Source: Streptomyces sp. NBC_01454 (GTDB taxonomy: Bacteria; Actinomycetota; Actinomycetes; Streptomycetales; Streptomycetaceae). Taken from it: a DNA stretch of 64,000 bases. Where the stretch lies: the NCBI RefSeq assembly GCF_036227565.1, contig NZ_CP109460.1:6076001-6140000 (forward strand), given 5' to 3'. The notes under the pieces were generated by a model, which saw nothing but the letters and a program-made list of their open reading frames with translations, did not search any database and was not told the DNA's origin. This document shows positions 20,568 to 23,728 of the stretch, piece after piece. Within the stretch, counting starts at the first letter, position 1; every line of letters begins with the position of its first letter. The translations under genes and the position numbers were made by a program.

Positions 20568-20605
20568 ACGATGCCCCCGCAGGCCGGTGCTTGCGGGGGC
20601 ATCGT
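20568..20605 (+). terminator. terminator after the RND permease
   Basis: Perfect 14-bp stem (20568-20581 with 20592-20605) and 10-base loop, 18 bp after the permease stop. It separates the permease from the small peptide gene. Confidence 0.85.
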
Positions 20606-20670
20606 GCTGGGCATCCCCTGACGGTGGAAGCCCGGCACGGGGGATCCCGCCATCGACGAAGGGGGCACAC

Positions 20671-20781
20671 ATGGGGAAGCACGGTGACGGCAAGGGCGGC
20701 ACGGACGGCGACAAGCAGCAGAGTCCGAAGGAGTCCGACGGCCGGTGGACCAAGCCGGTGACCGACCCGCCGAAGAAGTAG
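20671..20781 (+). CDS. 36-residue Asp-Gly-rich peptide, candidate RiPP precursor (imiditide type)
   Basis: The peptide has no Cys, seven Lys, one Arg and six acidic residues. It has three Asp-Gly steps (Asp6-Gly7, Asp12-Gly13, Asp23-Gly24), the dipeptide most prone to form aspartimide and isoaspartate. ATG at 20671 has AAGGGGG five bases upstream. The next gene, a PIMT-like methyltransferase, starts 10 bp after its stop. In imiditides, as I recall, a PIMT homologue acts on a small, charged precursor encoded beside it to make an aspartimide. By that analogy Asp23 (SDGRW) or another Asp-Gly is the likely target. Nothing else about the peptide is recognised. Confidence 0.7.
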   Translation: MGKHGDGKGGTDGDKQQSPKESDGRWTKPVTDPPKK

Positions 20782-20791
20782 GGGGCGCGCC

Positions 20792-21877
20792 ATGTCCTCG
20801 CCGGACCGGCTGGTGGAAATCCTGCGCAACAAGGGCGCGTTGACGCCCCAGTGGGCCCCGTCCGTCGCCGCGGTCGACCGGGCGCACTTCGTCCCGGACA
20901 CCTTCGAGGTGGGGGAGCGCACGGTCTCCCGCTCCGCGGACGAGGAGGAGTGGCGGCGGATGGTCTACGCCGACCTGCCCCTCGTCACCCAGCACAACGA
21001 CGGCCGGGCCGCCTCCGGTCAGGTCCCCGTCCCGACCTGCTCGACGTCCATGCCCTCCCTGATGCTCGACATGGCCTCGGTCGTCCGGGACGGCGACGCG
21101 GTACTGGAGATCGGCACCGGCACCGGCTACCACGCCGCCTGGCTGGCCCACCGGCTCGGCGAGGACCGCACCACCACCATCGAGACCGACAAGGCCCTGC
21201 ACGACCTCGCCCGCGACAACCTCGCCCGGGCCGGTCTGCGTCCCCATATGGAGTGCGGCGACGGTCTGGCCGGCGTCCCCGGGCGCGCGCCCTTCGACCG
21301 CACCATCGCCACCTGCACGGTGCGCGACATCCCCTACGCCTGGGTGGCACAGACCGCGCCGGGCGGCACGATCCTCACCCCGTGGGGCTCCTCGTTCCAC
21401 TCCTTCTCGTTCGCGACCCTGACCGTCCGCGACGGGCGGGCCACCGGCCGCTTCATCGGCCGCCCGGCCTTCATGTGGGCCCGTCAGCAGCGCCGCTCCT
21501 ACGGCAGGATCAGGGACTGGTACCACGGAGAGGAGGGCGAGCGCGCGACGACGACCGTCGACCCTCGGATCCTGGAGGACGACCTGCACGCCCGCTTCGC
21601 CGTCGGACTGCGGGTGCGCGACGCCTGGCCGCTGCTGTGCCCCGCCGACGACGGCAGCGACGAGGCCACCTACTGGCTCTTCGACGACGCCCGCACCTCC
21701 TGGGCGACCGTCGAATACGTACCCGGCCGCGACACCTACGAGACCGAACAGCACGGCCCCCGCCGCCTGTGGGACGAGGTGGAAGCCGCCTACCGCGCCT
21801 GGACCGCCCAGGGCAGCCCGCCCCGCCACCACTACCGCATCACGGTCACCCCCGAGGGGCAGCGCGTGTCGCTGTGA
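20792..21877 (+). CDS. protein-L-isoaspartate methyltransferase-like enzyme (RiPP-associated type)
   Basis: 361 residues, much longer than the about 210-230 of repair PIMTs. The Rossmann core has motif I VLEIGTGTGYHAAWL (104-118) and APFDRTIATCTVRDIP later. The active-site loop, ISxPH in repair enzymes, reads VPVPTCSTSMPSLM (78-91). A C-terminal domain (about 215-361) carries YWLFDD, SWATVEY and GPRRLWDEVEAAYRAW, which I recall from methyltransferases tied to lanthipeptides, graspetides and imiditides. ATG at 20792 has GGGGG upstream. It follows the Asp-Gly peptide by 10 bp, and a 16-bp terminator ends the unit. Likely methylates Asp to start aspartimide formation; a repair role is less likely. 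Confidence 0.88.
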   Translation: MSSPDRLVEILRNKGALTPQWAPSVAAVDRAHFVPDTFEVGERTVSRSADEEEWRRMVYADLPLVTQHNDGRAASGQVPVPTCSTSMPSLMLDMASVVRDGDAVLEIGTGTGYHAAWLAHRLGEDRTTTIETDKALHDLARDNLARAGLRPHMECGDGLAGVPGRAPFDRTIATCTVRDIPYAWVAQTAPGGTILTPWGSSFHSFSFATLTVRDGRATGRFIGRPAFMWARQQRRSYGRIRDWYHGEEGERATTTVDPRILEDDLHARFAVGLRVRDAWPLLCPADDGSDEATYWLFDDARTSWATVEYVPGRDTYETEQHGPRRLWDEVEAAYRAWTAQGSPPRHHYRITVTPEGQRVSL

Positions 21878-21925: not shown

Positions 21926-22111
21926 CTAGCCCAGCTCCTTGAGCGAGTCCACGAACATGGTCCAGGCGGCGGCCGGGACGAGGAGGGCCGGGCCGTGGGG
22001 GTTCTTGCTGTCGCGGACGGGGACGAGGCCGGGGAAGCCGTCGGCGACCTCGACGCAGCTGCCCCCGTTGGTGTTGCTGTAGCTGCTCTTGCGCCAGCGA
22101 GCCGCGCTCAA
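21926..22111 (-). CDS. DUF397 protein, copy 1 (ancestral start lost by nonsense codon)
   Basis: DUF397 proteins are small partners of Scr1-type regulators. The reading frame from TTG 22111 encodes 61 residues, about 85% like copy 2 (KSSYSNTNGGSCVEVADGFPGLVPVRDSK). The expected start, ATG 22129 with GGAGG upstream, is followed at once by an in-frame TGA (22126-22124) where copy 2 has CGA. Translation would have to begin at TTG 22111, which has no good ribosome site, or restart after the start-stop pair. The body has no other damage. It may be weakly expressed or on the way to a pseudogene. Confidence 0.6.
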   Translation of the reverse strand: MSAARWRKSSYSNTNGGSCVEVADGFPGLVPVRDSKNPHGPALLVPAAAWTMFVDSLKELG

Positions 22112-22176
22112 CTCGATTGTGTGTCACATGGTTTGTGGTCCTCCATAGCGTTTCGGAACAGGTCCGCCGCTTCCTC
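22108..22176 (-). pseudogene. C-terminal remnant of a duplicated Scr1-type regulator gene
   Basis: 22 codons plus stop encode EEAADLFRNAMEDHKPCDTQSS, matching the end of the intact regulator (TESANLIRKAMEDHRPCDTPQST). It lies directly before DUF397 copy 1, in the same overlapping arrangement as the intact pair. It shows that a regulator-tail plus DUF397 unit was duplicated in tandem and only the tail of the regulator was kept. No start codon or upstream body remains. Confidence 0.8.
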
Positions 22177-22209
22177 GTGAGGTGCCCGTGCCGCCGTGAT
22201 GCGGCCCCT

Positions 22210-22416
22210 CTAGCTCCGGCCCTTGAGGGAGTCCACGAACGTGGTCCAGGCGGCGGCCGGGACGAGGAGGGCCGGGCCGTGGGGGTTCTTGCTGTCGCGG
22301 ACGGGGACGAGGCCGGGGTAGTCGTCGGCGACCTCGACGCATTCACCGCCGTTGGAGTTGCTGTAGCTGCTCCTGCGCCACTGGGCGCCGCTCAGGTTGA
22401 CTGGGGCGTGTCGCAT
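22210..22416 (-). CDS. DUF397 protein, copy 2 (intact)
   Basis: 68 residues with the DUF397 pattern (WRRSSYSNSNGGECVEVADDYPGLVPVRDSK, AWTTFVDSLK). ATG at 22416 has GGAGG ten bases upstream. Its first 25 bp overlap the end of the regulator gene, so the two are coupled. In Streptomyces, Scr1/DUF397-type pairs affect secondary metabolism when overexpressed (Scr1/Scr2 in S. coelicolor); the molecular role is unclear. Confidence 0.88.
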   Translation of the reverse strand: MRHAPVNLSGAQWRRSSYSNSNGGECVEVADDYPGLVPVRDSKNPHGPALLVPAAAWTTFVDSLKGRS

Positions 22417-23240
22417 GGCCTGTGGTCCTCCATTGCCTTCCGAATCAGGTTCGCCGACTCCGTGAGAGAGAGGGCGTTCGCGCGCAGTACCTCGTACTGC
22501 CGCTGCCACTTGCTCACGATATCGGGGGCCTCGTACAAGTGACCGGCCTCAATACCTTCTTCGTAAGCCACCGTTGACCCGTCGGGCTGGGACAGCAGGG
22601 TCAGGGCGCCACCCATCAGCGCATGCAGCCCGAGCCGGAACGGAACCACCTGAATCTTGCAGTAGGGCGTATCCACCTGTGCCAGCAATGAGGCCAACTG
22701 CTCGTACATCGCTGATTCGCCGTCCAACTCCCTGCAGAGCACGGCTTCGTCGAGGATCGCCCAGCGGTAGGGCGGTGCCTGCGACCGTTGCCGTTCCTGA
22801 CGCGACATGCGGGCGTCGACCCGTTGCTCGACCTCTTCCGGGGACAGACTTTCCTGGCGGCTCAGGAAGGTCTGCGCGTACGTCCTGGTCTGCAGCAGGC
22901 CGGGTACCACCTGGCCTCCGTACTGCTCGATGACCGCGGCCTGTGCCTCGAAGTCCATATAGCGCCGGTACTGATCCGGATGCGCCTCCCGCCTGGCCAG
23001 TTGGTACAAGCCGTGGAAGTACGTCTCCGTGCCGAAGGCCGCGTCGAGCGCGGAGGGGAGTTCCGGCGGGGGCATCAACTCCGCCGTTTCCACGCGCGCC
23101 AGCGTGCTCTTGCTGAAGTTGACGATGGCCGCCAGCTGCATCAGCGACAGCTGTGCGCGCTCACGGTGGCGGCGCTGTTCGGATCCGAAGTAGTGGCGGG
23201 CGGACAGGTACGGGGTCAGTTCCTTCGAGGTGAACTTCAT
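22392..23240 (-). CDS. Scr1-family XRE transcriptional regulator (DUF5753)
   Basis: 282 residues. An N-terminal XRE helix-turn-helix (about 15-70, LSLMQLAAIVNFSKSTLARVE) is followed by the DUF5753 domain (about 90-270, QYGGQVVPGLLQTRTYAQTFL; ILDEAVLCRELDG). The ATG at 23240 is preferred; a GTG at 23273 would add 11 residues but has no ribosome site. It overlaps DUF397 copy 2. A tail remnant of a second copy lies downstream. Divergent from the Cys-rich gene at 23369. Confidence 0.9.
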   Translation of the reverse strand: MKFTSKELTPYLSARHYFGSEQRRHRERAQLSLMQLAAIVNFSKSTLARVETAELMPPPELPSALDAAFGTETYFHGLYQLARREAHPDQYRRYMDFEAQAAVIEQYGGQVVPGLLQTRTYAQTFLSRQESLSPEEVEQRVDARMSRQERQRSQAPPYRWAILDEAVLCRELDGESAMYEQLASLLAQVDTPYCKIQVVPFRLGLHALMGGALTLLSQPDGSTVAYEEGIEAGHLYEAPDIVSKWQRQYEVLRANALSLTESANLIRKAMEDHRPCDTPQST

Positions 23241-23368
23241 CTGCGTCAGCTCTCGGTCGTCCCAGCTCAACACATGTACGGAACAAGGGTGTTGCGGCCA
23301 TGTCCTCCAGGGTGGCCGCGGCGATACACACGGTAAGCAGACGGATCGACATCAAGAAAGCGGGCCAT

Positions 23369-23728
23369 ATGTTCGAGAGTTCGCCGCCGCGGTTGCTTCC
23401 CTGGACCAGGTCGGACGGGGCGCCGTGCTATCTGAGCACCGACGATCCCCACAGCCGGCTGTCCCAGCTCGCCGACGATGTCGAGGACGAGGTGCTCACG
23501 GCCGCCGGAACCGTGCTGGCCGAGGCCGAGCTGCTGTTCGCCGCGCCGGGCCCGGATCCCCAAGAGCTGCGCCGCACCGCGGCCGTGCTCCACGGGGCAC
23601 TGCGGGATGTCTTACGGATCGCCGACAGCCGGGGCGACCGGCTGCCGGAGCCGTGCGATCACGGCGAGACCAGGCTCTGCGAGGGGCGGACCTGCTGCCG
23701 CGCCTGCCGTCAGCAGATCTATCTCTAG
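23369..23728 (+). CDS. unrecognised protein with a C-terminal Cys cluster
   Basis: 119 residues. A helical, acidic middle (about 30-90) is followed by a cluster Cys96, Cys104, Cys109, Cys110, Cys113 with His98, which could bind zinc. Not recognised. ATG at 23369 is chosen; a GTG or other start up to 23300 is possible. It is divergent from the Scr1-type regulator, so it may be its target or partner; this is only positional. Confidence 0.65.
   Translation: MFESSPPRLLPWTRSDGAPCYLSTDDPHSRLSQLADDVEDEVLTAAGTVLAEAELLFAAPGPDPQELRRTAAVLHGALRDVLRIADSRGDRLPEPCDHGETRLCEGRTCCRACRQQIYL

Follow-up and report, generated by a model that had tools for sequence, protein, structure and literature searches.

A probable two-gene imiditide locus in Streptomyces sp. 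NBC_01454, with a conserved peptide and relatives that often lie near WhiJ-type regulators

Our analysis concerns two adjacent genes at positions 20671..21877 of a 64-kb stretch of DNA from Streptomyces sp. NBC_01454 (the whole of this stretch is called the window). The first gene encodes a peptide that is rich in Asp, Gly and Lys and contains no Cys. The second begins 10 bp further on and encodes a PIMT-like methyltransferase. Both reading frames were chosen by a coding-potential gene caller, and the sequence agrees with the original prediction of such a peptide, 36 residues long, at this distance before such an enzyme. The features of the locus and its surroundings are as follows.

20568..20605, no strand assigned: hairpin between the upstream RND transporter gene and the peptide gene, without a T-run, probable transcription terminator
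20659..20665, plus strand: Shine-Dalgarno-like AAGGGGG of the peptide gene, read from the sequence
20671..20781, plus strand: probable imiditide precursor peptide gene, 36 codons (36 aa), subfamily A
20737..20739, plus strand: codon of Asp23 (in ESDGRW), predicted methylation/aspartimide site; an Asp-Gly in 24 of 24 unique subfamily-A peptides, with counterparts in subfamilies B, C, D and E
20792..21877, plus strand: RiPP-type PIMT homologue (peptide/protein L-aspartyl O-methyltransferase, PAMT), 361 aa
21032..21067, plus strand: PTCSTSMPSLML loop (residues 81-92), replacing the SAPHM-type loop of ordinary PIMTs
21107..21127, plus strand: SAM-binding motif EIGTGTG (residues 106-112)
21497..21874, plus strand: extra C-terminal domain (about residues 236-361), like that of Thermotoga maritima PIMT; the 1DL5 alignment reaches residue 361
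21644..21667, plus strand: acidic loop ADDGSDEA (residues 285-292), candidate dock for the basic peptide tail by analogy with the DEDGD loop of NmaM (PMC13001092)
21800..21820, plus strand: WTAQGSP, the WxxxGxP motif (residues 337-343) of RiPP-associated PIMTs (motif according to PMC13001092)
21878..21918, no strand assigned: perfect hairpin with 19-nt arms between the convergent methyltransferase and DUF397 genes, without a T-run, probable bidirectional terminator
21926..22111, minus strand: DUF397 (BldB-type) protein, a neighbour outside the conserved pair
22210..22416, minus strand: second DUF397-like protein, a neighbour, found with a model built in this analysis
22392..23273, minus strand: XRE/DUF5753 (WhiJ-type) regulator, a neighbour; such regulators are enriched around imiditide loci
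23300..23728: 142-aa gene, divergent from the XRE/DUF5753 regulator, without a Pfam match

A run resembling AAGGGGG also precedes the peptide gene in eight close relatives. The closest named relative of the locus is that of S. kronopolitis, with a methyltransferase identity of 96%. It had been claimed that terminators close the unit on both sides. Hairpins do lie on both flanks; because neither has a T-run, their function as terminators is presumed rather than certain. The stem of the upstream hairpin is identical in L023, L061, L062, L063, L064 and L026, but not in L024 and L068. The RND transporter and two-component genes further upstream are shared within the close group of ten loci and not with the rest of the 26 that we compared.

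The two genes very probably form an imiditide (type I pamtide) locus, which would make them members of a published class and not a new system. Loci of the class are defined as a small precursor rich in Gly, Pro, Asp and Lys together with a PIMT homologue that carries an additional C-terminal domain, while other RiPP enzymes are absent (PMC13001092 and PMC10787088). The sequence of the locus displays this layout: an adjacent precursor, the WTAQGSP motif, a C-terminal domain of the 1DL5 type and no further RiPP enzyme. The last point had also been part of the original prediction. By Pfam, no other RiPP primary enzyme was found in the 16 of 21 called genes that were profiled between 9.3 and 29.4 kb of the window, and no ATP-grasp ligase adjoins the pair among the genes on either side.

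The same layout, with a small Gly/Pro/Asp/Lys-rich precursor that lacks a Cys motif, is shared by SpaA-SpaM of Streptomyces sparsogenes and NmaA-NmaM of Nonomuraea maritima. As far as their described features allow the comparison, SpaM and NmaM also share with our enzyme the extra C-terminal domain, WxxxGxP, the acidic C-terminal loop and the lack of another RiPP enzyme nearby. For SpaA and NmaA the modification has been shown; for our peptide it is predicted. In NmaA the modified Asp is followed by His (PMC13001092); in our peptide the next residue is Gly, if Asp23 is the site. Cysimiditides or type II pamtides (FcaA, NalA, TceA*) are two-gene systems of a precursor and a PAMT as well, but their precursors carry a zinc-binding pair of CxxCxGxG motifs (PMC13001092). 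The 36-aa peptide has no Cys, hence neither motif, and we rejected type II identity for this reason.

Pfam recognises a PCMT domain in the methyltransferase. A canonical protein-repair PIMT consists of the catalytic domain only and has a SAPHM-type loop, and our enzyme departs from it in both respects. Its loop resembles that of the Thermotoga maritima PIMT (PDB 1DL5). When the AlphaFold2 model was compared with 1DL5, the C-terminal domain aligned to the last residue, with an rmsd of 7.1 over both domains and an identity of 24% over the aligned residues. Both the changed active-site loop and the extra C-terminal domain that had been read from the letters are therefore found in the enzyme. Along with the PCMT domain and the WTAQGSP motif, these features agree with the literature description of RiPP-associated PIMTs (PMC10787088, PMC13001092). 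We know of no peptide gene that is tied to the Thermotoga maritima PIMT.

A search with the peptide in 392 Streptomyces genomes gave 18 matches at E ≤ 7e-9, followed by the next match at 0.007. All 18, our locus included, adjoin a methyltransferase or its remnant, 15 of them a full-length one. For 16 of the 17 other matches the methyltransferase was found in place by tblastn at 1e-10: fourteen are full-length, one lies in two pieces out of frame (L071, an apparent frameshift) and one extends into a run of N. In the remaining match, L073, the methyltransferase frame directly 3' of the peptide is shortened and carries an internal deletion.

The reverse search started from the enzyme and found at least 95 places at E ≤ 1e-65 in 64 of the 392 Streptomyces genomes, with up to five candidates scored per genome. 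From the best 56 of these at least 95 places we removed one seeming second copy with the same score, which left 55 loci. An Asp-rich small ORF lies directly upstream of the methyltransferase in 53 of these 55 best loci. Homologous methyltransferases without an adjacent small ORF would have spoken against the original prediction, and only two of the 55 (L118 and L121) are of this kind. In 51 loci the peptide belongs to a recognisable subfamily, A to E (one of them, L137, was found by eye and has a TTG start); in L145 and L148 the small ORF is Asp/Gly-rich and unclassified. An automatic blind rule for upstream peptides recovered 48 of the 55 enzyme genes as against 1 of 297 control genes. In each of eight pairs from other genera of the class (L164-L171, outside the 55), a short Asp-rich ORF can be seen by eye before the enzyme.

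We also compared the neighbourhoods of 26 loci, that is our locus, the 17 other peptide matches and eight named contigs (L027 and L077 are apparently one contig). The recurring unit is the peptide with its methyltransferase, and the pair is kept in unlike neighbourhoods. Clustering of the neighbours over these 26 loci showed no recurring family of transporters, proteases or further modifying enzymes. The pair, its co-inheritance, its conservation, and the fold and family of the enzyme can thus be read from sequence comparison.

The peptides of subfamily A follow the pattern GKHGDGKGG.xGDKxQSPxESDGxW...PPKK. An alignment of the peptide across Streptomyces had been proposed as a check. In 24 unique subfamily-A peptides, D23-G24 is invariant. 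So are Asp6 and Asp14; Asp12 is replaced by Glu in 13 of the 24, and Asp32 is variable. Asp23-Gly24 is seemingly the only Asp-Gly with a counterpart in every subfamily, as judged by eye: an Asp-Gly in 10 of 10 subfamily-B peptides (SDGH in six), DGHKP in all seven of subfamily C, NDG in 17 and SDG in two of the 19 of subfamily D, and DDGQQP in both of subfamily E. Two subfamily-D peptides, L147 and L141, have a middle part that is lost or degenerate and scrambled, and retain NDGQGP. Further out, the candidate peptides of L165 and L169 have no Asp-Gly (two of the eight pairs viewed from other genera of the class). On this pattern we predict that Asp23 is the modified residue, and we consider this quite likely. 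It remains a prediction and not a proof because D6-G7 is almost equally conserved within subfamily A (D in 24 and G in 23 of the 24).

The peptide subfamilies also follow the enzyme. When peptide labels were placed on an enzyme tree of 82 rows, 11 label changes were needed, compared to a mean of 49.6 after shuffling. Subfamilies A and B form one supported clade (100/99), in which A is scattered (5 changes). Hence, an A-like peptide may be ancestral in the A/B clade. Subfamily D (loci L123-L149) is a widespread second peptide subfamily, GNPQDDSDSGNKHGGGGSDEGGNTNDGQGPADG, without a Lys tail.

Between distant relatives the peptide changes less than the enzyme. Comparison of 22 subfamily-A loci gave 231 pairs, and in 210 of these the peptide is better conserved than the enzyme. 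For pairs with an enzyme identity below 60% this holds in all 177 cases (mean identity 48-53% for the enzyme, 76-78% for the peptide), and for pairs at or above 60% in 33 of 54. The corresponding figures are 44 of 45 pairs in subfamily B, 153 of 171 in D and only 12 of 21 in C. The pN/pS of the peptide is 0.37 in close and deep comparisons alike, which indicates purifying selection; that of the enzyme rises from 0.32 for eight close relatives to 0.67 for distant ones. These ratios have to be taken with caution, since the peptide is short and codon choice in GC-rich genomes restricts synonymous change. The greater conservation of the peptide between distant relatives argues for a fixed target.

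We propose that the two genes would be read together and that the methyltransferase would recognise the unmodified linear peptide. SpaM and NmaM modify linear unmodified precursors (PMC10787088, PMC13001092). Recognition may be due partly to charge, with the PPKK tail docking to the ADDGSDEA loop. The enzyme would then methylate one Asp side chain, most likely that of Asp23 in ESDGRW. Attack of the following amide nitrogen on the methyl ester would form an aspartimide, and this may either last or be hydrolysed to isoaspartate or aspartate. We infer the reaction, the modified site and the charge docking, the reaction by analogy with the characterised homologues SpaM and NmaM.

The charge part of this proposal is only partly borne out by the comparison of subfamilies. 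In NmaM, replacement of the DEDGD loop lowered modification (PMC13001092). Counted as acidic minus basic residues, the charge of the corresponding loop is 4 in most members of subfamily A (range 1 to 5); it ranges from 1 to 4 in B, from -2 to 2 in D and from 0 to 2 in C. Subfamily-D peptides have no Lys tail, whereas subfamily-C tails are very basic despite a weakly acidic loop. Charge recognition would therefore fit A and D, B weakly, but not C. The model is further weakened by subfamily-A peptides that lack the basic tail (L074, L075, L076).

One could also argue that the product that matters is isoaspartate and not the aspartimide, so that Asp23 would be converted to isoAsp via a short-lived aspartimide. 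This is the "pamtide" reading of the same class, and we give it slightly less than an even chance. With SpaA and SpaM, a type I pair from Streptomyces, most of the recovered peptide kept its mass, alongside species at -18 and +14 Da (PMC10787088), and in vitro hydrolysis had gone to completion within 24 h (PMC13001092). In addition, the predicted site is an Asp-Gly, and less aspartimide was formed when Gly followed the Asp in NmaA (PMC13001092). In contrast, about half of NmaA was aspartimide after 40 h of expression (PMC13001092), and for SpaM the change from Asp to isoAsp lacks direct confirmation (PMC10787088).

While the chemistry of imiditides is known, their function is not, and linking the class to a biological function has been named as the main open challenge (PMC13001092). 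By itself our locus adds a single case to a class of which more than 1400 have been mined (1414 type I pamtides; PMC13001092). What lifts it somewhat above routine is its conservation pattern together with a regulator link. The surroundings of its relatives point to a definite regulator family. Of the 55 best loci, 22 have XRE/DUF5753 genes at a distance of up to 4 kb (28 genes), compared to 1.8 expected. This is about 16 times more, an approximate ratio because the loci were counted with a model built here (E ≤ 1e-6) and the density with Pfam PF19054 (E ≤ 1e-4). The expectation comes from 1265 DUF5753 genes in 345 Mb of the same 42 genomes (rounded sizes). DUF6879 is found near 16 and DUF397 near 11 of the 55. 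When loci are collapsed at 70% enzyme identity, DUF5753 occurs in at least one member of 9 of 25 clusters.

In ten of the 55 loci (L069, L112, L113, L115, L116, L119, L122, L129, L133 and L146) the regulator lies upstream on the same strand, with DUF6879 before it, and ends about 210-470 bp before the enzyme. L127 is arranged likewise, with a longer gap. The ten consist of one A, six B and three D loci. Of ten neighbours compared with Pfam, three have DUF6879, four have DUF5753, one has just a helix-turn-helix, and two are without a match.

These observations raise the possibility that a WhiJ/BldB-type switch (XRE-DUF5753 with DUF397 or DUF6879) either controls the pair as its output or responds to it as a ligand, and that the peptide is regulated and intracellular rather than exported. 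There is a precedent in S. venezuelae, where WhiJ9 binds beside its neighbour iosA and activates it (PMC10294661). We nevertheless regard this as unlikely. The other 33 of the 55 best loci have no such regulator within 4 kb, only 5 of the 25 clusters have one in every member, and the ten upstream cases reduce to three lineages by 70% clustering. It may also be that accessory genes simply cluster. We checked clustering as the cause in this one genome: a DUF5753 gene occurs within 4 kb of 5 of 15 genes with a PCMT domain, of none of 38 P450 genes and of 2 of 101 TetR genes (Fisher p 8e-5). These counts are low, the TetR genes come from the 150 of 289 candidates that were scored, and imiditide-type enzymes account for just two of the five PCMT genes (our pair and L153).

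For our locus the link is weaker. The neighbours at 21926-23273 belong to the same families as WhiJ-BldB (XRE-DUF5753/DUF397) pairs, and our first idea was that they are part of the unit. We rejected it and treat the island as a neighbour because it is missing in 6 of the 10 close loci (L062, L063, L068, L025, L026 and the closest relative, L023). At our locus it lies downstream, is convergent with the pair and has its own divergent gene (23300-23728). As to its distribution, the island with the 142-aa gene (21926-23728) is present in L061, L064 and L024 and absent in L025, L026 and L068; in L023, L062 and L063 only the next gene remains (170 aa in the window).

Conservation along the whole peptide, neighbourhoods in which clustering showed no recurrent family of transporters or proteases, and the frequent WhiJ-type neighbours favour a conserved, possibly intracellular, regulated role over that of a diversifying antibiotic. 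The more general claim, that Streptomyces imiditides are conserved regulated peptides wired to WhiJ-type switches as output or ligand and not diversifying antibiotics, is in our view likewise unlikely. Its clearest form would be the recurrent DUF6879-regulator-peptide-methyltransferase arrays (e.g., L113, L116, L146). If true, it would be a first role for the imiditide class. For graspetides of groups 11 and 13, a possible co-occurrence with DUF397/DUF5753 has been described (PMC13097080). For imiditides, the terms XRE, DUF397, helix-turn-helix, transcription and operon are absent from the review PMC13001092, and a link to DUF397, DUF5753 or DUF6879 was not found in the searched literature, outside which the original 2023 imiditide paper lies.

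A different origin is suggested by the nearest NCBIfam model of the enzyme, TIGR04188 (ATP-grasp-associated methyltransferase): the locus might be the remnant of a graspetide cluster that has lost its ligase. Group 13 graspetides with a PIMT ("graspimiditides" such as fuscimiditide and amycolimiditide) have a homologous methyltransferase of this model and the same expected chemistry, but they also have an ATP-grasp ligase, which was not found among the genes profiled here. The same genome contains four methyltransferases of the graspetide type (L154, L155, L156 and L158), with apparent ATP-grasp ends directly upstream as judged by eye. The score of our enzyme, 312.9 bits, is under the cut-off of 380. 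Of the four graspetide-type enzymes only L155 passes it (419.1 bits; L154 370.4, L156 370.6, L158 290.9), and seven imiditide-type enzymes score 285-361 bits. TIGR04188 fails to separate the two kinds because just one of four graspetide-type enzymes passes and the imiditide-type scores overlap with the rest. In the tree, however, the four enzymes form a separate branch outside the imiditide enzymes, and, by clustering of the neighbours, the pair occurs in many unlike places without a recurring third gene. We therefore rejected the remnant as highly improbable. Equally hard to believe, and also rejected, is a housekeeping protein-repair PIMT beside a spurious ORF: it would account for the PCMT domain, but the extra C-terminal domain, the altered loop, the patchy spread over 64 of 392 genomes (E ≤ 1e-65) and a conserved peptide adjacent at every clear match all speak against it.

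Some loci deserve mention in their own right. L118 (G231:C23) has a methyltransferase of the subfamily-A/B clade that is not preceded by a peptide ORF; a short way upstream, the opposite strand carries DUF397-like genes and a DUF5753 regulator. Genome G158 has an intact subfamily-A peptide beside the apparently frameshifted methyltransferase on its main contig (L071, G158:C1), and a methyltransferase with only a GPPKKK-like remnant of a peptide, seen by eye, on a 296-kb contig (L121, G158:C2). L071 and L121 could possibly be one system split over two replicons, or the result of a sequencing error. The genome of our locus holds a second imiditide-like pair (L153:4042-5217; G000:C1:2531674-2532783, minus strand). 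Its methyltransferase is about 40% identical to ours, a 40-aa Asp/Gly/Pro-rich ORF lies 3 bp upstream of it, and a DUF5753 gene is about 1.7 kb off. Finally, a second PIMT-like gene adjoins the imiditide pair in L030, on the same strand, and in L075, on the opposite strand.
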